21,840 bases of DNA from a virus: the IMG/VR virus record IMGVR_UViG_3300020437_001549, positions 1 to 21,840 of that record. The stretch is one strand, 5' to 3'. Of this stretch, positions 3,327-14,376 are shown one piece after another. Every line of letters begins with the position of its first letter. The first letter of the stretch is position 1. The notes beneath the pieces were generated by a model, which searched no databases, had not been told where the DNA came from, and saw only the letters and a program-made list of their open reading frames with translations. The position numbers were made by a program, and so were the translations under genes.

Positions 3327-4763
3327 ATGGCAGATATACTAGTACATAATGCAATTAAAGATGTTCAGCAAGCTATTAATGAAGGTACAACCAATATTAT
3401 ATACAAGCCAATACTTGGCTCTGAACTTTATGATTATGTCAAAGCAATAATTGATGCAAACAAAACTACTGGTCCTTATAATACCGGTGGAGGCGGTTCA
3501 GCAACTCAGCCAATAAGTGATCTTTCATGCTCAGAAAAAATATCATTATGTACATGTAGTTTCTCTGGATCAGGAACAAGTTGTACATCTCATTGTATGG
3601 GTGGACAAGGTGTTTGGAGAGATGGTACAGTGTTACCAGGTAATCCAGGTGGAGCATCACAAACACCAGCACAAATCAGAGCGGCAATATTAACTAAAGA
3701 AGCTTCAGTGAATGGAATTAAATTACTGGATTCAATGTATGGAGCAGATAACACTAATGTACAAAATGATATAATATTAGTCTATTGGAGACTATTAAAA
3801 TTTTATACAGATGCCGCTGATACACAGGTTTTACAATTTTGGTATGGAGTAGGTGGTAGTTTCCCACAGGGATCTAGAATCAGTAATTCAAACTATCTCA
3901 AAGTATGTGGTGGCAGTTGGAGAAGCGGAGAAGGTGCAACATGTACATGGACTGTACCAGCTGGAGCAACTTGTGCCAGATTTCAGGTATGGGGAGCAGG
4001 CATGGGATCTAATCCAGGTTGTTGCTGTGGAGGTTCCAATGGAGGTTCTCATGGAGCATATGCAGAAATGACAATAAAGGTTACACCCGGAGATCAGTAT
4101 GTAATGTGTGCCGGATGTTCTTGTTCAATAATGTGTTGTTCAAATGTAACTCCAGGATACGGTTGTATGTCAGGTGTAACAGGAAATGGTATATGTTGTT
4201 TGAAAGCAGACGGTGAATTTTGTTACAATGGAAACTGTTATAATCTAAGTTGTACAAGAGTCAAAAGTGGACATGCTGGTGCATCATGTTGGTATTGGGG
4301 AAGTACTTATTGTACAAACTCAGGACATTGTTGGTGTAGTTACAGTGAATATTGTGCAGTAGGTTGTAGCACATGTGGGGTAGTAGAAGTTTATCCAAAT
4401 TGTTGGACTGATGGTGGAGGACAGTTTTGTAACTGTGCAACTACGGCATGTGTAATAACAGACGGTGGTTGCTACGGACACAGAGGATTATATGGTGGAG
4501 GTTGTACTGACACAAACCATTACGGATATCATGTTAGAGCACCAGTAATTGATGCAGATACAGGACGGATGTTTGCAGATAATCAAGGTTGTTTCTGTTT
4601 TTACTTTACAAGTGGAAGTTGTTGTGGCGGAACACTTGCAACTGGGTGGACAAAGCATCCAGGAATGGGCGGAACAGCTACACACGTTATGGGCGGAGCC
4701 AATCAGTTTTATGGTGAATACGGAACTGGAGGAATGGTACAAGTATCATGGGTAACAAGTTAA
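3327..4763 (+). CDS. Cysteine-rich adhesin-like virion protein (paralogue 1)
   Basis: 478 aa. No family name can be given with certainty. Residues 1-55 (MADILVHNAI...DANKTTGPY) form a short helical N-terminus shared with the next gene, plausibly a virion attachment or trimer module. From about residue 205 there is a TWTVPAGAT...FQVWGAG motif typical of glycine-rich phage adhesin domains, but many of the expected glycines are replaced by cysteine: PGCCCGG, CAGCSC, MCCSN, GICC, CWC and SCCGG. I count 39 Cys (about 8%), 34 of them after residue 190. No signal peptide or membrane helix is visible. An AGGAATAGG ribosome-binding region precedes the ATG. The gene lies between a large fibre gene and its own paralogue. 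Inferred role: distal tail adhesin whose tip is stabilised by disulfides or bound metal. Confidence 0.75.
   Translation: MADILVHNAIKDVQQAINEGTTNIIYKPILGSELYDYVKAIIDANKTTGPYNTGGGGSATQPISDLSCSEKISLCTCSFSGSGTSCTSHCMGGQGVWRDGTVLPGNPGGASQTPAQIRAAILTKEASVNGIKLLDSMYGADNTNVQNDIILVYWRLLKFYTDAADTQVLQFWYGVGGSFPQGSRISNSNYLKVCGGSWRSGEGATCTWTVPAGATCARFQVWGAGMGSNPGCCCGGSNGGSHGAYAEMTIKVTPGDQYVMCAGCSCSIMCCSNVTPGYGCMSGVTGNGICCLKADGEFCYNGNCYNLSCTRVKSGHAGASCWYWGSTYCTNSGHCWCSYSEYCAVGCSTCGVVEVYPNCWTDGGGQFCNCATTACVITDGGCYGHRGLYGGGCTDTNHYGYHVRAPVIDADTGRMFADNQGCFCFYFTSGSCCGGTLATGWTKHPGMGGTATHVMGGANQFYGEYGTGGMVQVSWVTS
4161..4192 (+). repeat. 32-bp exact direct repeat, copy 1
   Basis: This 32-bp stretch, encoding the GCMSGVTGNG region of the first Cys-rich protein, is identical to 5595-5626 in the second. 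A second shared block of 21 bp encodes PGCCCGG (4014-4034 and 5448-5468). The flanking DNA is clearly diverged, so these are islands of identity between paralogues. Confidence 0.85.
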
Positions 4764-4787: not shown

Positions 4788-6197
4788 ATGGCTGATATTC
4801 TAGTACAAAATGCAATAGACAAAGTTGCTTCAGCGGTTGCCGGCGGAGCAGGAAAGATTGATTATAGAACAGTCTTTAACGGACTCAGCATGAAGCAAAA
4901 AGTAAAAGAAATTATCGATGCCAATCCAGGAACAGGACCTTATCAAGTTGGATCAGGTAGCGCCAAGCTATGTGATTTAACTGATCATTGTTACATGTCT
5001 TTGTGTGTATGTCCTTATGCTGGAAGTGGAACTGCATGTGGTTCTGTATACATCGGAAATGGCAGTAATAAATGGACAGACGGTACAATATTAGGCACAG
5101 GTGGTAGTACACCAAGTGTATCTGATATTAGAACTGCGATCACAAACTTAGATAAAACTATTGAAGCTGTGTATGACATAAGCAACACAGTGGTTCAAAG
5201 AGACATATACTACGCATATTTAGAATTGAGGGCAGATTATTATGCAGGTAACAATACTACTCTAAAACAAGAATGGTATGGTATTGAATTACCAGCTACT
5301 CCAGGACAACCATTAAGTCAAACAAATAGAACTAAAGTTTGCGGTACTAATTGGAAATGTGGGGAAGGTGCAACGTGTACATGGACTGTTCCGGTTGGAG
5401 CCTCCCAAGCAAAATTCCAGGCATGGGGAGCAGGTCAAGGAACCAACCCAGGTTGTTGCTGTGGAGGTGCTAATTTTGGTTTTAACGGCGCATATTCAGA
5501 AATAACAATTAAGGTTACACCAGGAGATCAATATACAATTTGTGCAGGATGCGCCTGTTGTAGATGGTGTTGTAGTAATAACCCCCCAAGTTATGGTTGT
5601 ATGTCAGGTGTAACAGGAAATGGTATTTGTTGCTTTAAAGCGGATGGAGCCTATTGTGAACATCAAGAATGTCATAGTCAAAACTGGCTAAGAGTCAATA
5701 GTAGTGCTCCAGGTATGCCAGGCTCCTCATGTCGTAGACATCAAAACCCATATTGTACAACTTCAGGATCATGTTATTGTAGCTATGGTGGTTGGTGCTT
5801 TAGTAACAGTTGCTCAACATGTGGAGTTTATCCAATAATGATTGACTGTTGTAACTATATCACTTATTGTAGTTGTGCCACTACAGCTTGTAAAGTCGTA
5901 GATGGAGTAGACAATGGATTCAGAGGCATGGGCGGTGGAACATGCTATGATACTAATAACTATGGATGGTACACAAGACCACCACATCTAGATGCAGATA
6001 CAGGGTTGCATTTCGGATGTCAAGTTGGTTGTTCATGTGCGTCTGTATCAAGTAACTGTTGTTGTGGAGGATGTAACGGAACAGGTTGGACATGGCATCC
6101 AGGATTTGGTGGTGCATATACACATACAATGGGTGGTAATAATACTCACAAAGGTGATGTAGGTAAAGCAGGAATGGTTATTGTATCTTGGAACTAA
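4788..6197 (+). CDS. Cysteine-rich adhesin-like virion protein (paralogue 2)
   Basis: 469 aa, a tandem paralogue of the preceding gene. Both proteins share the MADILVxNAI N-terminus, the IIDANxxTGPY segment, the CTWTVPxGA...FQxWGAG core, PGCCCGG, IKVTPGDQY, the GCMSGVTGNGICC block and a C-terminal half full of Cys motifs. I count 42 Cys in 469 residues (about 9%), including CRWCCSN, CSTCG and NCCCGGC. The central 80-190 region, which lacks Cys, is the most diverged between the two. A 24-nt gap separates the genes, with an AAGGAATGG ribosome-binding region before the ATG. Inferred role: a second host-range adhesin produced by duplication, possibly co-assembled with the first. Cys may serve disulfides or metal sites; the sequence alone cannot decide. 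Confidence 0.75.
   Translation: MADILVQNAIDKVASAVAGGAGKIDYRTVFNGLSMKQKVKEIIDANPGTGPYQVGSGSAKLCDLTDHCYMSLCVCPYAGSGTACGSVYIGNGSNKWTDGTILGTGGSTPSVSDIRTAITNLDKTIEAVYDISNTVVQRDIYYAYLELRADYYAGNNTTLKQEWYGIELPATPGQPLSQTNRTKVCGTNWKCGEGATCTWTVPVGASQAKFQAWGAGQGTNPGCCCGGANFGFNGAYSEITIKVTPGDQYTICAGCACCRWCCSNNPPSYGCMSGVTGNGICCFKADGAYCEHQECHSQNWLRVNSSAPGMPGSSCRRHQNPYCTTSGSCYCSYGGWCFSNSCSTCGVYPIMIDCCNYITYCSCATTACKVVDGVDNGFRGMGGGTCYDTNNYGWYTRPPHLDADTGLHFGCQVGCSCASVSSNCCCGGCNGTGWTWHPGFGGAYTHTMGGNNTHKGDVGKAGMVIVSWN
5595..5626 (+). repeat. 32-bp exact direct repeat, copy 2
   Basis: Identical to 4161-4192 in the neighbouring paralogue. See that entry for the companion 21-bp block. Confidence 0.85.
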
Positions 6198-8112: not shown

Positions 8113-9948
8113 ATGGAAAAAACAGGCTATATTTTAGCTATAGCAAGAGGCCATAATGCTGGGGCCTGTTTGCTTAAAGATGGAAAAATAGTTTTCAGCA
8201 TCGAAGAAGAACGTTTAAGCAGAAGAAAGTATGATGGTGGTCCTTATGCGGCTATGGTCAAAACATTAGAATACACTGATAAAGTTGATAATATTGTAGT
8301 AGCACATACTCAATCAATACATGAAACTGGTGCTTTAACAGACTTTACAGGTGACGATGTTTATTCAGCTTTGGGTAGAAAACTAGGATTGATTGATCAA
8401 AATGTTCAATATACAATGGGACAAATGCATGACCAATTAATAGATTTATCTGTAATACATCATAAACTTCATGCCAGTTGTGCATTTTATAGAAGTGGTT
8501 TTGACGAAGCAGTTGCACTAATAGTAGATGGTGCTGGTACATTCTATCCTCTTAATAATTCAGAAGGAACTGTTAAACTTACTGGTTTTGAAGTTGAAAG
8601 TATTTTTAGGTGTAGTTATCCTGCTAATATCGAAACATTGTATAAACACATGGGAACAACAGATGTAAAAGAACATTTTCAAGGTCCTATTACTATAACT
8701 GACCCGCTTATTGGACCTGAAACTTTTGATACTGTAATTTCTGATCGTCCTGGTATTGTAAAAGTTTACGAAGCAGTAACATCTTATTGTGGTTTTAATG
8801 CCATTGAAGCAGGTAAAACAATGGGATTATTTCCGTATGGAAAACCAAATGAGAATATACCAAAATTATTTGATGATTATGGTCTAGATTCTTTTGCAAA
8901 TAGAAATTTAATTATACCTAACTATCCAAACGGCGCATTTGTAAATTATCAAATATATCCAGAATTACAAACTTCTGCTGATCAATTTGCAACACAAGAT
9001 GTGACTACATTACAAAATAGAAGAGATCTGGCATATGCATTACAAACCCAAACACAAGAAGAAATGGTAAAACTAATAAGAAAAGCTGTAGAAGTGGGTG
9101 GTTCAAAAAATGTGGTTATAAGTGGAGGTTATGGATTAAATTGTGTTGCAAACTATCATTATTTAGAAGCACTTAAAGATGATGATATCAATATCTATGT
9201 AGAGCCAGTTAGTAATGATGCTGGTACTGCCATGGGTGCAGGACTATATTTTTATCATACAAATACTGAGTCTATGGAAAAAACTCCATCTAGTTTGTAT
9301 TTGGGTCCTAAATACAATTATTCTGATGATGTAATTAATCAAACTGCTAGCAAGTATAATGCCACAGTAGAAGATTGTGATAATACTAGAGTTGTTGATT
9401 TACTTGTTGAAAGAAACATTGTAAGTATATTCCAAGGACGTTGTGAAAATGGACCTAGAGCATTAGGTAACAGAAGTATACTTTACGACCCAACAGACCC
9501 TAACGGAAAAGATCATGTAAACACTGTAAAAAGAAGAGAATATTTTAGACCTTTTGCAGGCACAATTCTTGCAGAAGATGTACATGAATGGTTTGATTTA
9601 AGAGGTATGAATGATAGTCCTCACATGATGTATGCAGTCAATTGTCAACCTGGTGTGAAAGAAAAGATACCTGCTATTATACATGTTGATGACACATGTA
9701 GAATACAAACTGTAACTTATGAAGAAAATCCTAATTATTATGATTTGATTAATGAATGGAAAACTAGGACAGGCATTCCGATTATTTTTAATACCAGCTT
9801 TAACTTAGGTGGAGAACCTTTGGTTGAAGATTTGAAAGATGCACTATGGACATTGCAACAAAGTGATATTGAATATTTGTATTTGCCAGAGTATAAAAAG
9901 TTATTGACAATTAAGAATGAACCTCAGGAAATAGACAATCCTGTATAA
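8113..9948 (+). CDS. O-carbamoyltransferase (NodU/CmcH/TobZ family)
   Basis: 611 aa, normal full length for the family. The enzyme uses carbamoyl phosphate and ATP to form carbamoyl-AMP, then carbamoylates a hydroxyl group on a sugar or similar acceptor. The Kae1/YrdC-like domains are recognisable: GHNAGACLLKDGKI (13-26) with EEERLSRRKYDG, the metal-binding HHKLHAS (116-122), VDGAGT (138-143), GGYGLNC (338-344), QGRCENGPRALGNRS (441-455), REYFRPFAG and FNTSFNLGGEPLV (559-571). The start is ATG after GAGGAAATA, 7 nt behind the GT9 gene, so the two form an operon. Carbamoyltransferases are frequent in marine T4-like phages, but their acceptors are mostly unknown. Pairing with a heptosyltransferase-like enzyme suggests carbamoylation of a phage-added sugar. 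The 3' end overlaps the convergent bilin reductase gene by 38 bp. Confidence 0.9.
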   Translation: MEKTGYILAIARGHNAGACLLKDGKIVFSIEEERLSRRKYDGGPYAAMVKTLEYTDKVDNIVVAHTQSIHETGALTDFTGDDVYSALGRKLGLIDQNVQYTMGQMHDQLIDLSVIHHKLHASCAFYRSGFDEAVALIVDGAGTFYPLNNSEGTVKLTGFEVESIFRCSYPANIETLYKHMGTTDVKEHFQGPITITDPLIGPETFDTVISDRPGIVKVYEAVTSYCGFNAIEAGKTMGLFPYGKPNENIPKLFDDYGLDSFANRNLIIPNYPNGAFVNYQIYPELQTSADQFATQDVTTLQNRRDLAYALQTQTQEEMVKLIRKAVEVGGSKNVVISGGYGLNCVANYHYLEALKDDDINIYVEPVSNDAGTAMGAGLYFYHTNTESMEKTPSSLYLGPKYNYSDDVINQTASKYNATVEDCDNTRVVDLLVERNIVSIFQGRCENGPRALGNRSILYDPTDPNGKDHVNTVKRREYFRPFAGTILAEDVHEWFDLRGMNDSPHMMYAVNCQPGVKEKIPAIIHVDDTCRIQTVTYEENPNYYDLINEWKTRTGIPIIFNTSFNLGGEPLVEDLKDALWTLQQSDIEYLYLPEYKKLLTIKNEPQEIDNPV

Positions 9949-10588
9949 AATGTTTTACATCTTTTGGATCAAGTCCTAAAGACTCCATAACTTTTGGTGT
10001 ATGAGGATTTTGTTTTTGATAATGACAATATCTATTTTGCTGATCCTTAATTAAGGCAGTATTGTAATTAGTGTTAGTATATTTTGGTAATTCTTCAAAA
10101 TACATGTCTAAATTATCAAGTGCAATTTCTACAACTTGATCCATTTCTTCACTTGTGTTAACATTTCCTACTGCAATCATGTGTCCAGAAAATATTGCTT
10201 TTGCCCAATCAGGCAATTCTCTTTCTTTACGCCATTCTAAATTTTGTACACAATCTCTAAACAGATTACACATAGGATGATTCCAATCTATGGTTGGTGA
10301 ATAGTCATGGAAAGCACCAGTAACTTTCTTTTTACCTGCAATAATATCAAATCCGTATATAGGTGCATCGTTATCAAAGTTTGGAAATACACAAATATGA
10401 GTCATATACAAACCTTTTGTAGCTCTGGCATCAACACTATCAATATGAGCTCGTCTAAAATGCTCTCCTTTAAATACTCGATTGAGCCAATCAAACTCTG
10501 GATCATCGAATTGTTCCACTCCTAAACTAGCACATTTTTCAATTATCTTTTGTTCACATGCTATAAGTTTATCCCATATTTCACTCAT
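9911..10588 (-). CDS. pcyX: Ferredoxin-dependent bilin reductase, PcyX-like
   Basis: 225 aa, the usual size of phage bilin reductases. The family (PcyA, PebA, PebB, PebS, PcyX, HY2) reduces biliverdin IXalpha with electrons from ferredoxin. PcyX, described from marine phages, gives phycoerythrobilin (recalled knowledge). Matching features are [17 protein letters not shown] (about 67-83, the central beta-sheet core), [11 protein letters not shown] with Asp95 at the place of the conserved proton-donor Asp of PcyA/PebS, and a C-terminal [15 protein letters not shown]...VMESLG segment where Asp182 may match the second catalytic Asp of PebS. It resembles PcyA/PcyX more than PebS in the core. The start (ATG at 10588) overlaps the hemA stop as ATGA and is preceded by AGAGGAAG, so translation is coupled to hemA. 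Haem oxygenase, which would supply biliverdin, is not in the window. The product chromophore cannot be proven from sequence. Confidence 0.82.
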
Positions 10589-11769
10589 ATTACTTCCTCT
10601 AATCTTTCTGCAAGATCTGAAATCATCGCGTTGCTATGCATTGGTGTTGGCGCAAATCTTAAACGTTCAGTGCCTTGTGGTACTGTTGGATAGTTAATAG
10701 GTTGTACATAAATGTTGTGATCATTTAGTAATGTGTCACTGATTTGTTTACAACGTACTGCATTTCCTATTAGTACTGGTACAATATGTGTTTCGTTTTC
10801 AATCATATTAATATTCTTATGTCTGAATATTTTCTTTAGTCTATTAGCACGATTTTGATGTTGTTGTCTTAGTTCAACGCCATGTTCACTACGCAAATAT
10901 TTTATACTGCTTAATGCACCTGCACATATTACTGGACTCATACTTGTGGTAAAAATAAAACCACTTGCTACACTTCTAATTGCATCCATAGCCACATCAT
11001 CACCAGAGACATATCCACCTTGACAACCAAAGGCTTTGCCTAATGTACCATTTATAAAATCTACTTGATCTTGTAATCCTTGAAGTTCAAGATAACCTGC
11101 ACCTGTATCACCATATAGTCCAACAGCATGTACTTCATCGCAATAGGTTATAGCATGGTATTCTTTTGCAAGATCAATTATTTCCTTAGCTTTGCTTGTA
11201 TATCCATCCATACTATAGATACTCTCAAAAACAATGCAAGCTGTACCTTCTACTTTTGCTAGTGCTTGTTCTAAACTATCCATGTCATTGTGTTCAAATA
11301 TATGTTTTGGTGCACCACTATGTCTAATACCTTGAATAAGACTTGCATGATTTTTATTATCACTTACAAATTCTATATCTGGCAGTATTTTGCTAAGTGC
11401 AATTAGTGTCCATTCGTTGGCTACATAAGCACTGGAGTATAACAAAGACGACGGTTTGTTGTGTAATTTCGACAGTTCGTATTCTAAGGCAACATGATAA
11501 TGGCTAGTACCTCCTATGTTTCTAGTCCCACCACTGCCTGCACCTGTTTGATCCAGTGCAGTATGCATTGCGTCTAACACAACTTTGTGTTGACCCATAC
11601 CCAAGTAATCGTTGCTACACCAATTGATAATATTTTTAATATTGTAAGGACCGTAGTAAATTGCTTGTGGATATTCTCCACGTTCTCTGAGTATGTCATT
11701 GAATACTCTATAATTACCACTACCTTTTAGATTGGTTATTACGTTCTGAAATCTGTCTTTGTCTATCAT
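10585..11769 (-). CDS. hemA: 5-aminolevulinate synthase (Shemin pathway)
   Basis: 394 aa, close to the alphaproteobacterial enzyme in length and alignable from end to end from memory. It is a PLP enzyme condensing glycine and succinyl-CoA to 5-aminolevulinate, the first committed step of haem synthesis in alphaproteobacteria. ALAS-type signatures are GNYRVF with Arg21, [12 protein letters not shown] (50-61), [13 protein letters not shown] (76-88), [10 protein letters not shown] with cofactor-stacking His141, [10 protein letters not shown] with Asp211 and His214, [14 protein letters not shown] with the Schiff-base Lys245, [20 protein letters not shown] with Arg369. GTRNI and the last block separate it from 2-amino-3-ketobutyrate CoA ligase and AONS (BioF). 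All catalytic residues I can check are intact. The 5' end overlaps the upstream small ORF by about 50 bp and there is no strong ribosome-binding site, so initiation may depend on translation of that ORF. The 3' end overlaps pcyX by 4 bp. Confidence 0.95.
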
Positions 11770-11905
11770 GATATTCGTTGTACATTTCTTTGTCTAAATA
11801 TGTATAAGACCCAAACCATGTGCCTAACGTAAAAAATCCCATTTTGTGAAACTCTTTTGTAGCTTCATTGTAATCTTTTATCCATTCTTTAATGTACTTT
11901 AGCAT
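11720..11905 (-). CDS. Small unknown protein, first gene of the hemA-pcyX operon
   Basis: 61 aa from the ATG at 11905 (an in-frame ATG at 11932 would give 70 aa but lies upstream of the late promoter octamer). The peptide is rich in aromatic and charged residues ([39 protein letters not shown]), ends in a polar tail, and has no clear membrane helix or Cys. I do not recognise it. Its last 50 bp overlap the start of hemA in another frame, which suggests translational coupling. There is no ribosome-binding site; the predicted late transcript would begin at or next to its ATG. It could be a genuine small accessory protein of the tetrapyrrole module or just a leader peptide that delivers ribosomes to hemA. 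Confidence 0.55.
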
Positions 11906-11975: not shown

Positions 11976-12845
11976 ATGCATATCGTCACGGGTGCGGCTG
12001 GATTTGTAGGCAGTAATTTAGTTGCACATTTAAACAAACAAGGACACACTGATGTGTTGTTGGTGGATACTTTGTCAATGAATAAGACAAAAAACCTAGC
12101 AGGATTAATTTTTGAAGACTTTATTAATCCTAGTGAACTATTAGAAATCAACATAGACAAAAGTGATGTTGTATGGCATATGGGTGCTAACAGTAGTACA
12201 AAAGAAACTGACTGGAATAAAATATATTCTAGTAATGTAGACTTTACAAGACAACTTGTAAGTAAATGTAACACAATGGTTTTTGCTAGCAGTGCCAGTG
12301 TGTATGGAGATAATGTAACTACACAAGAGCATCCAATCAACGAAGCTCCAAAAAATTTATATGCAAGTAGTAAATTAATCTGCGATAATATTTTTAGGAA
12401 CACTGTTGGTTGTAAAATACACAGTTGGAGATTCTTTAATGTATACGGAAACAGAGAAAGTCATAAGCAAGCTATAGGCATGGGAAGTCCTTATACAAAT
12501 TTTGTTAAACAAGCAAAAGATACAGGTGTGATTAAGATATTTGAAGGTAGTGACAAAGTTCAACGTGACTTTGTTTGTGTAGAAGATGTTGTTGATATAA
12601 TGTATGATTGTCTACAACATGATGAAAGTTTTATATGTAATCTTGGCACAGGAACAACATATACTTTTGAGTATTGGGCAAAACTAATTGCAAGTCATTA
12701 TAATGCAGTTATAGAACATATTCCAGTGCCTGATGATTTGAAAGGCATTTATCAAATGTACACTTGTAGTAATAATGATAAACTTAACACACTTATCAAT
12801 TATGATTTTACATCTCCAGAAGAATTTGTTGAGGCTAATTTGTGA
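11976..12845 (+). CDS. hldD: ADP-L-glycero-D-manno-heptose-6-epimerase
   Basis: 289 aa, slightly shorter than the bacterial enzyme (about 310). A short-chain dehydrogenase/epimerase that converts ADP-D-glycero- to ADP-L-glycero-beta-D-manno-heptose. It has the N-terminal Rossmann loop TGAAGFVGSN (5-14), ASSASVYG with the catalytic-region Ser106, YxxxK as Tyr129/Lys133 (LYASSKLI), RFFNVYGNRESHK, FEGSDKVQRDFVCVEDVV, NLGTG, and IPVPDDLKGIYQMYTCS. The last block and FEGS...RDFV are specific to HldD among sugar epimerases. The start has a strong AGGAG site and consensus promoter just upstream. The stop overlaps the GTG start of hldE (GTGA), so the two are translationally coupled. GmhA and GmhB, which are also needed for the pathway, are not in the window and may come from the host. 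Confidence 0.9.
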   Translation: MHIVTGAAGFVGSNLVAHLNKQGHTDVLLVDTLSMNKTKNLAGLIFEDFINPSELLEINIDKSDVVWHMGANSSTKETDWNKIYSSNVDFTRQLVSKCNTMVFASSASVYGDNVTTQEHPINEAPKNLYASSKLICDNIFRNTVGCKIHSWRFFNVYGNRESHKQAIGMGSPYTNFVKQAKDTGVIKIFEGSDKVQRDFVCVEDVVDIMYDCLQHDESFICNLGTGTTYTFEYWAKLIASHYNAVIEHIPVPDDLKGIYQMYTCSNNDKLNTLINYDFTSPEEFVEANL

Positions 12846-14002
12846 TTGTAGTAATTGGTGATATTATTATAGATGAATATGTGTATGGTACAAGCACACG
12901 CCTTAGTCCAGAAGCACCAGTGCCTGTTGTAAAACACGAAAAGACAGAACGTAAGCTGGGCGGTGCAGGAAATGTTTACAATAACATAAAAAGCCTTACA
13001 GATGATGTAACACTCATTGGTTATAGAAATGACACTACGGATTGGCCCGTAGAACTGTTTTGTACACACATGCCACTAAAGCAAAGAATTTATGCTGACA
13101 AACATTATATTACTAGAATTGATAGAGAACAAACAATCGACAATAGCACATTGTTTGATTATGTAAAGCAACGTGTTCATAATTGTACAGTGGTCATAAG
13201 TGATTATAACAAAGGTACAATACAAGATCCGCAACGTTTAATAAAGATACTAAAAGGTAATGGCTGTTATGTAATTGTTGATCCCAAACAACATTTGGAT
13301 TTGTATACAGGTGCTGATGTAATCAAACCAAATAAAAAAGAATACGAAGAATACAATAATGGTGTAAAGACAAATATGGTTGTAACAATGGGTGCAGATG
13401 GCTACATGATAAATGGCAAACATTATCCAACACAACAAAAGGAAGTATATGATGTCACAGGAGCAGGTGATACATTTTTAGCAGTGATGTCATACTTTTT
13501 AGACTTTGGCGAAAGTTTAGAGTTTGCTTGTGAAATGGCTAACAAAGGTGCTGGTGTTAGTGTACAACACAATGGGGTATATGTGGTTCATTGGAAAGAC
13601 TTAGATCCTCGTCCTACAGTTGTGTTTACAAATGGTTGTTTTGATTTATTACACAGAGGACATGTGGAAATGCTCAAAGCAAGTAAGGCACTCGGAGAGC
13701 ATCTTGTAGTAGGATTAAATACTGATGCTAGTGTTAAGAGATTAAAAGGTGATACTAGACCAATCAATAACGAAACAGATAGAAAAGTAGTGCTTGAGAG
13801 TTTAGATTTTGTCGATGAAGTTATTTTGTTTGATGAAGATACACCACAGCAACTAATAGAAAGAATACGCCCTGATATCATAACCAAAGGCGGCGACTAC
13901 ACTGTTGATACTGTAGTTGGTAATGAACTTGCAAAAGTTGTAATTATACCAACTGTAGAAAATCAAAGCACTACAAATACAATCAAAAGGATAGTATTAT
14001 GA
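12842..14002 (+). CDS. hldE: Bifunctional heptose-7-phosphate kinase / heptose-1-phosphate adenylyltransferase
   Basis: 386 aa from a GTG start that overlaps the hldD stop. Residues 1-252 form a PfkB/ribokinase-type kinase: GDIIIDEYVYGTSTRLSPEAPVPVV (6-30) is the HldE substrate signature, followed by KLGGAGNVYNN, SDYNKG, and DVTGAGDTF (204-212) with catalytic Asp210. Residues 258-386 form a nucleotidyltransferase: FTNGCFDLLHRGHVEML with the HxGH motif (271-274), VGLNTDASVKRLKGDTRPI and ITKGGDY. It would phosphorylate heptose-7-phosphate at C1 and, after dephosphorylation at C7, adenylylate it to ADP-heptose. E. coli HldE is about 477 aa with a kinase of about 318, so the phage kinase domain is about 60 residues shorter while its key motifs remain. 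The stop overlaps the cupin start (ATGA). Confidence 0.92.
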   Translation: MIVVIGDIIIDEYVYGTSTRLSPEAPVPVVKHEKTERKLGGAGNVYNNIKSLTDDVTLIGYRNDTTDWPVELFCTHMPLKQRIYADKHYITRIDREQTIDNSTLFDYVKQRVHNCTVVISDYNKGTIQDPQRLIKILKGNGCYVIVDPKQHLDLYTGADVIKPNKKEYEEYNNGVKTNMVVTMGADGYMINGKHYPTQQKEVYDVTGAGDTFLAVMSYFLDFGESLEFACEMANKGAGVSVQHNGVYVVHWKDLDPRPTVVFTNGCFDLLHRGHVEMLKASKALGEHLVVGLNTDASVKRLKGDTRPINNETDRKVVLESLDFVDEVILFDEDTPQQLIERIRPDIITKGGDYTVDTVVGNELAKVVIIPTVENQSTTNTIKRIVL

Positions 14003-14376
14003 CACAATTAAATGGTGTGCAAGAAAAAGGATGGGGTCGAGAATTAATTTGGGCTACCAACGAAAAATATTGTGGTAAACTAATGTTCTTTGATCGTAAA
14101 GGCTCTAAGTTTAGCTTGCATTTTCATAAAGAAAAAGATGAAAGTTGGTATGTACTTAAAGGAAGTTTTATGCTACACATACTTGATTGTAGCAATGCAG
14201 AAATGTCTAGTTCAGTTTTAAAAACAGGAGATACTTGGCGTAATTTGCCCATGTCACCTCATCAGTTAGTTGCAATGGAAGACGATAGTATTATAATAGA
14301 AGTCAGTACACCGGACAGTGTTGAAGATAATTTTCGTATTGCAAAAGGTGATAGCCAAAAGTCAAAAAGTGTCTAA
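13999..14376 (+). CDS. Cupin-domain protein, sugar-phosphate isomerase-like
   Basis: 125 aa, a single cupin barrel. The metal-binding motif is complete: HFHKEKDE gives His41, His43 and Glu48, and PHQ gives His88. The flanks (GWGRELIWATNEKYCGKLMFFDRKGSKFSLHFH) resemble the C-terminal domain of type II mannose-6-phosphate isomerases and the small cupins often found in LPS/heptose clusters. It is ATGA-coupled to hldE and is the last gene of the hldD-hldE operon, so a role in sugar-nucleotide or sugar-phosphate handling is likely. Whether it is an isomerase, epimerase or a binding protein cannot be told. Its 3' end overlaps the convergent Nudix gene by 15 bp. Confidence 0.8.
   Translation: MTQLNGVQEKGWGRELIWATNEKYCGKLMFFDRKGSKFSLHFHKEKDESWYVLKGSFMLHILDCSNAEMSSSVLKTGDTWRNLPMSPHQLVAMEDDSIIIEVSTPDSVEDNFRIAKGDSQKSKSV

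Follow-up and report, generated by a model that had tools for sequence, protein, structure and literature searches.

A phage operon coupling 5-aminolevulinate synthase to a PcyX-like bilin reductase, with haem oxygenase encoded at a distance in related phages

Viral 5-aminolevulinate synthase (ALAS, valaS) genes accompanied by hemO and pcyA/X have been published (Wegner et al. 2024, PMC11480375), which bears out an earlier note on the present DNA that mentioned reports of viral hemA and pcyX. Complete, broken and single-gene valaS-hemO-pcyA/X forms are reported there from aquatic phages, activity is described for a viral ALAS as well as for HemO and PcyA/PcyX of viral origin, and the contigs cluster with pelagiphages by gp13. 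Porphyrins still accumulated when vAlaS was co-expressed with HemO and an FDBR (PMC11480375), which leaves the flow into bilin unproven, and the making of bilins by phages without a photosynthetic host is termed enigmatic by the discoverers of the genes. The sole bacterial example of all three genes side by side is, by the account of PMC11480375, the hemO-pcyA-alaS island of Bradyrhizobium sp. ORS278, which is linked to the phytochrome gene bphP, whereas no phytochrome was found in the phage records searched below. Two further systems resemble the window studied here, an entire IMG/VR record of 21,840 bases, through their bilin reductase. The PcyX of Pelagibacter phage Mosig EXVC030M is 50% identical to that of the window and its hemO-pcyX genes adjoin late structural genes; unlike the window, Mosig has hemO overlapping pcyX, lacks ALAS and carries a ferrochelatase and a 2Fe-2S ferredoxin. 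PcyX_EBK42635 (5owg) shares 47% identity, the fold and the catalytic Asp/His/Asp set with the window PcyX, but belongs to a different sequence lineage.

The window (GC 0.358) contains tail-fibre, LPS-sugar and tail genes and is a fragment, so the lack of a gene there says little. Its operon comprises a small conserved gene of 61 codons, ALAS and pcyX (Table 1), and the overlap of ALAS with pcyX by 4 bp (ATGA) is as previously noted. The carbamoyltransferase gene lies outside the operon, converging on pcyX with a 38 bp overlap at the pcyX 3' end, and serves as a synteny marker; the related contig G005 has this same convergent layout. A search for the gene pair, as the earlier note had proposed, found ALAS directly before pcyX on 28 other viral contigs. 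Median dN/dS values of 0.082 (61-aa ORF, non-overlapping part), 0.055 (ALAS) and 0.105 (PcyX) place all three genes under strong purifying selection, which together with this recurrence argues that the pair did not arise by chance.

Table 1. Features of the operon and its convergent neighbour, in window coordinates
Feature	Position	Strand	Remarks
NodU-like carbamoyltransferase	8113-9948	+	Pfam PF02543/PF16861, phrog_1601
pcyX-like ferredoxin-dependent bilin reductase	9911-10588	-	225 aa, full length
ALAS (valaS/hemA), 5-aminolevulinate synthase	10585-11769	-	394 aa, full length
Small conserved gene, 61 aa	11905-11720	-	first gene of the operon
T4-type late promoter element TATAAATA	11918-11911	-	ends 5 nt ahead of the 61-aa gene

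The published cassettes and the lineage of the window share three enzyme families and a setting in marine myovirus-like phages (PMC11480375). They differ in arrangement: the text of that paper describes hemO joined to pcyA/X with valaS in the vicinity, or else valaS by itself, whereas in the window valaS overlaps pcyX and ALAS, not hemO, precedes it, with the hemO genes of relatives lying near capsid genes. That paper (PMC11480375) already covers the three enzymes as a set, their presence in aquatic phages and activity of a viral ALAS, and single contigs with the ALAS-pcyX layout may be among its data. Added here are the pairing of ALAS with pcyX in one operon while hemO lies elsewhere, the conserved 61-aa gene, the late promoter motif, the co-occurrence of the three genes even where dispersed, and a different phage lineage.

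The identification of the upstream enzyme as ALAS was confirmed by NCBIfam TIGR01821 (545.2 bits against an equivalog cut-off of 338.55), while the models for the sister acyltransferases bioF and Kbl all stayed under their own cut-offs. Alignment to R. capsulatus ALAS (RcA) shows R21, T82, N84, H141, E182, D211, H214, K245, T362 and R371 to be kept, among them the PLP lysine (K245), and the substrate-binding residues are all present. The catalytic residues are intact, as claimed beforehand, although one assignment needed correction: the residue given as Arg369 is not the counterpart of RcA Arg374, which is position 371, both 369 and 371 being Arg within the motif ERLR. The haem-feedback residues are lost, with Arg339 in the place of RcA His342 and a chain that stops before RcA Cys400. 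The viral ALAS described in PMC11480375 likewise keeps the catalytic residues and loses those for haem feedback, and ALA-forming activity has been shown for it; the ALAS and PcyX encoded in the window are probably active too. In our ALAS tree the viral proteins form one group apart from the tested bacterial ALAS (support 97), the nearest of which is 55% identical.

The downstream gene was correctly called a bilin reductase: its product matches Pfam PF05996 (Fe_bilin_red) with 76.3 bits against a cut-off of 31, and also PHROG 7278. PcyX_EBK42635 is its closest solved relative by sequence (E 2.8e-63) and the top fold match of its AlphaFold2 model (pLDDT 90), which also matched PcyA, PebA and PebS. 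Both proteins have an Asp at the position of PcyA Glu76 (Asp50 in the window PcyX, alongside His64 and Asp81). Asp55 is described as a PcyX-specific catalytic residue whose absence was used to explain a phage PcyA (PMC11480375), and to judge by the alignment Asp50 probably occupies the same position. Assignment as a true PcyA (phycocyanobilin:ferredoxin oxidoreductase) was rejected, since the protein scored 96.9 bits with NF002760, under the cut-off of 206. Given its nearest relative by sequence and fold, the Asp at the Glu76 place and this failure of the PcyA model, the window PcyX most likely reduces biliverdin by four electrons, with phycoerythrobilin as the predicted product.

Upstream of the operon's first gene lies a perfect copy of TATAAATA, so the late promoter motif that had been proposed is indeed present. 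It is scarce rather than enriched in the window (one copy against 3.4 expected), its position is fixed in lineage members that have the 61-aa gene, and its distance to ALAS is constant save for a 15-nt insertion in two members. Among 54 distinct viral loci, 10 have ATAAATA at most 60 nt from the ALAS start, where about 0.6% would be expected for each. The 198-kb relative G029 has ten copies of TATAAATA, with five ORFs of at least 100 codons preceded by one at no more than 60 nt (0.2 expected); G030 and G005 each have one copy ahead of the portal gene. The presence of the same rare motif ahead of the portal genes of relatives makes it likely that the operon is read from a late promoter, which would place its expression late.

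The range given in the earlier note ran to 11905, yet its text did not mention the 61-aa gene. This gene and the start of ALAS share 50 nt, which makes translational coupling of the two likely. Homologs occupy the same site before ALAS in the lineage of the window, and more diverged ones precede ALAS in ALAS-only phages (e.g. L098, L100, L129, L144 and L147). No family was found for the protein in Pfam or PHROG, and tblastn against isolated phages gave no match at E 1. Its AlphaFold2 model is a helix-hairpin-helix (pLDDT 85), for which a fold search returned no PDB match with E < 1. In a sister group (L020-L022, L027, L028) another gene, for a small membrane-type protein, replaces the 61-aa gene and overlaps the ALAS start by ATGA.

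The virus had been described as encoding the entry step of haem synthesis together with the final bilin-reducing step. Both are present, but they do not stand alone, as four members of the lineage (G005, G008, G029, G030) encode the middle enzyme, hemO, 19-38 kb from the ALAS-pcyX pair. These hemO genes form one clade (100/99), and in G005, G029 and G030 they sit within a stretch of structural genes, at approximately 4-5 kb from gp23. The window itself yielded no hemO even at E 10, which counts against a role of the operon in a bilin pathway, although at 21.8 kb the record does not extend far enough to reveal the gene; from the spacing in G005, where hemO and pcyX are about 24 kb apart, hemO of this phage is predicted to lie about 14 kb past window base 1. 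In G005 and G029 alike, a subtilase-like gene stands between hemO and gp23, and hemO of G005 is adjoined by a gene for a radical SAM protein (L172:13576-14715, minus strand).

Taken together, these data are best explained if the 61-aa gene, ALAS and pcyX are the late-expressed part of a feedback-resistant phage supply line for reduced bilin, a reading to which we assign a probability of roughly 0.6. The phage ALAS, freed of its haem-feedback residues, would feed the supply of ALA late in the infection cycle; host enzymes would convert ALA to haem; the phage haem oxygenase, encoded tens of kb away in relatives, would open haem to biliverdin; and PcyX would reduce biliverdin to phycoerythrobilin with electrons from host ferredoxin. 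A route leading from ALA by way of haem and biliverdin to phycoerythrobilin is the most economical reading. We infer for it that this phage has hemO, what the product is, that expression is late and that the purpose lies in the bilin and not in iron.

The distribution of the three genes on longer contigs bears on whether they serve one pathway at all. Seven ALAS contigs reach 70 kb or more (G022, G029, G030, G338, G340, G344, G354), and six of them hold ALAS, hemO and pcyX, scattered or not; the seventh, G022, stops approximately 1-2 kb short of the site where G029 has hemO. Of the contigs retrieved through ALAS only, the long ones G340, G344, G349, G354 and G356 have pcyX and hemO elsewhere on the contig and a hemO fragment lies at the end of G366, while G346 and G362 (54 and 60 kb) contain neither pcyX nor hemO. 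This co-occurrence on long ALAS contigs amounts to a strong trend rather than a test. ALAS might instead sustain haem or tetrapyrrole flow while PcyX uses host biliverdin, the two genes overlapping just to save space under one late promoter. Many contigs do carry ALAS without a nearby bilin reductase and the neighbors of pcyX have changed, as such unrelated needs would allow, yet we consider this improbable, since the three genes co-occur on long contigs even when far apart and the ALAS copies of marine phages that are linked to bilin genes form one clade. In the ALAS tree that clade (99) contains the ALAS genes standing right next to pcyX together with the one from the L093 cassette (ALAS-hemO-pcyX), and the sets L046 and L063 from fresh water are placed outside it.

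The changes of neighbor are seen in the PcyX tree, where three hemO-coupled genes (L012, L018, L032) are nested among the ALAS-coupled ones. A first tree that included PcyA and the long-branched L075 rejected a single ALAS-coupled clade (p 0.0002), with long branches at work; once both were left out, such a clade was not quite rejected (p-AU 0.07). It is thus likely, though not proven, that pcyX swapped partners between hemO and ALAS. Such a swap, with the catalytic residues kept, would argue for a pathway ending in bilin, and the presence of ALAS, hemO and pcyX together in genomes where they are scattered likewise argues for one such pathway and against pure iron release.

Iron release had been among the purposes proposed for the gene pair, and an iron supply role is also suggested for the published sets (PMC11480375). 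In a scheme of haem turnover, HemO would take iron from the haem proteins of the host, to be used in making virions or in host metabolism, PcyX would draw biliverdin out of HemO and dispose of it, and ALAS would make up for the lost haem and so keep respiration running. The position of hemO beside capsid genes, with all parts looking late, and an empty search for bilin acceptors in relatives fit this scheme. We nevertheless regard it as somewhat unlikely, because a four-electron bilin reductase with the PcyX-type Asp conserved exceeds the needs of disposal, and because de novo haem synthesis uses up the same iron that HemO returns. Iron release alone would therefore fail to explain ALAS, which points to bilin or to haem replacement rather than to a gain of iron.

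The further suggestions of the earlier note, a chromophore for a host photoreceptor or a bilin bound to a virion protein, found no support: neither phycobiliprotein nor phytochrome was detected in 13 records, an absence that covers the known families and counts against a phage supply of bilin. A match of G045 to a phycobilisome model was rejected as weak, under its cut-off and within a 756-aa frame. The search of 13 records for a phage ferredoxin found one in Mosig only, which also counts against the supply of reduced bilin that we favor. The 18 related records contain no photosystem reaction-centre genes, in agreement with the reported lack of photosynthesis genes.

As for phage lineage, the gp23 of G030 is 69-71% identical to that of PA5oct-type Pseudomonas phages (Wroclawvirus, Arenbergviridae) and of a Vibrio jumbo phage, and the TerL of G029 is 57% identical to that of PA5oct-type phages. 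A Mosig-type pelagiphage was rejected, the capsid and terminase of relatives, on which rather than on the window's own genome this was tested, reaching just 180-266 bits to Mosig. With the gp23 and TerL of relatives nearest to PA5oct-type phages, a pelagiphage origin, as inferred for the published contigs, need not apply to this lineage. A more far-reaching and quite speculative proposal, which we would not expect to hold in full, is that non-cyanophage phages keep a genome-wide, co-inherited late ALAS/HemO/PcyX pathway whatever the gene order, that reduced bilin, possibly bound to a phage or host protein, is needed during virion production, and that the 61-aa protein is a new part of it, e.g. 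an ALAS regulator or a bilin carrier. The concrete gene sets listed here and the predicted location of hemO near gp23 can be checked in complete genomes.

Several neighboring observations accompany these data. An ADP-heptose module (window 11976-14376, plus strand), comprising an epimerase, an HldE-like kinase/adenylyltransferase and a cupin, is divergent from the ALAS operon and stays adjacent to it in relatives. Next to the tail fibre gene, two related glycine-/cysteine-rich proteins with many CC and CXC motifs are encoded at 3327-4763 and 4788-6197 (plus strand), the first of which gave no match in a Pfam search. Freshwater-type viral relatives of PcyX/PcyA (L045, L049-L076) have Glu, Ser, His or Lys at the PcyX-specific Asp position, and may thus form different bilin products. 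In bacterial genomes, the PcyX search returned just distant reductases at approximately 30% identity beyond four contigs (L176, L177, L178, L179) from MAGs of Halobacteroidaceae, Marinimicrobia, Pirellulales and Rickettsiales; these carry sHsp-hemO-pcyX and look like phage contigs, either misbinned or integrated.
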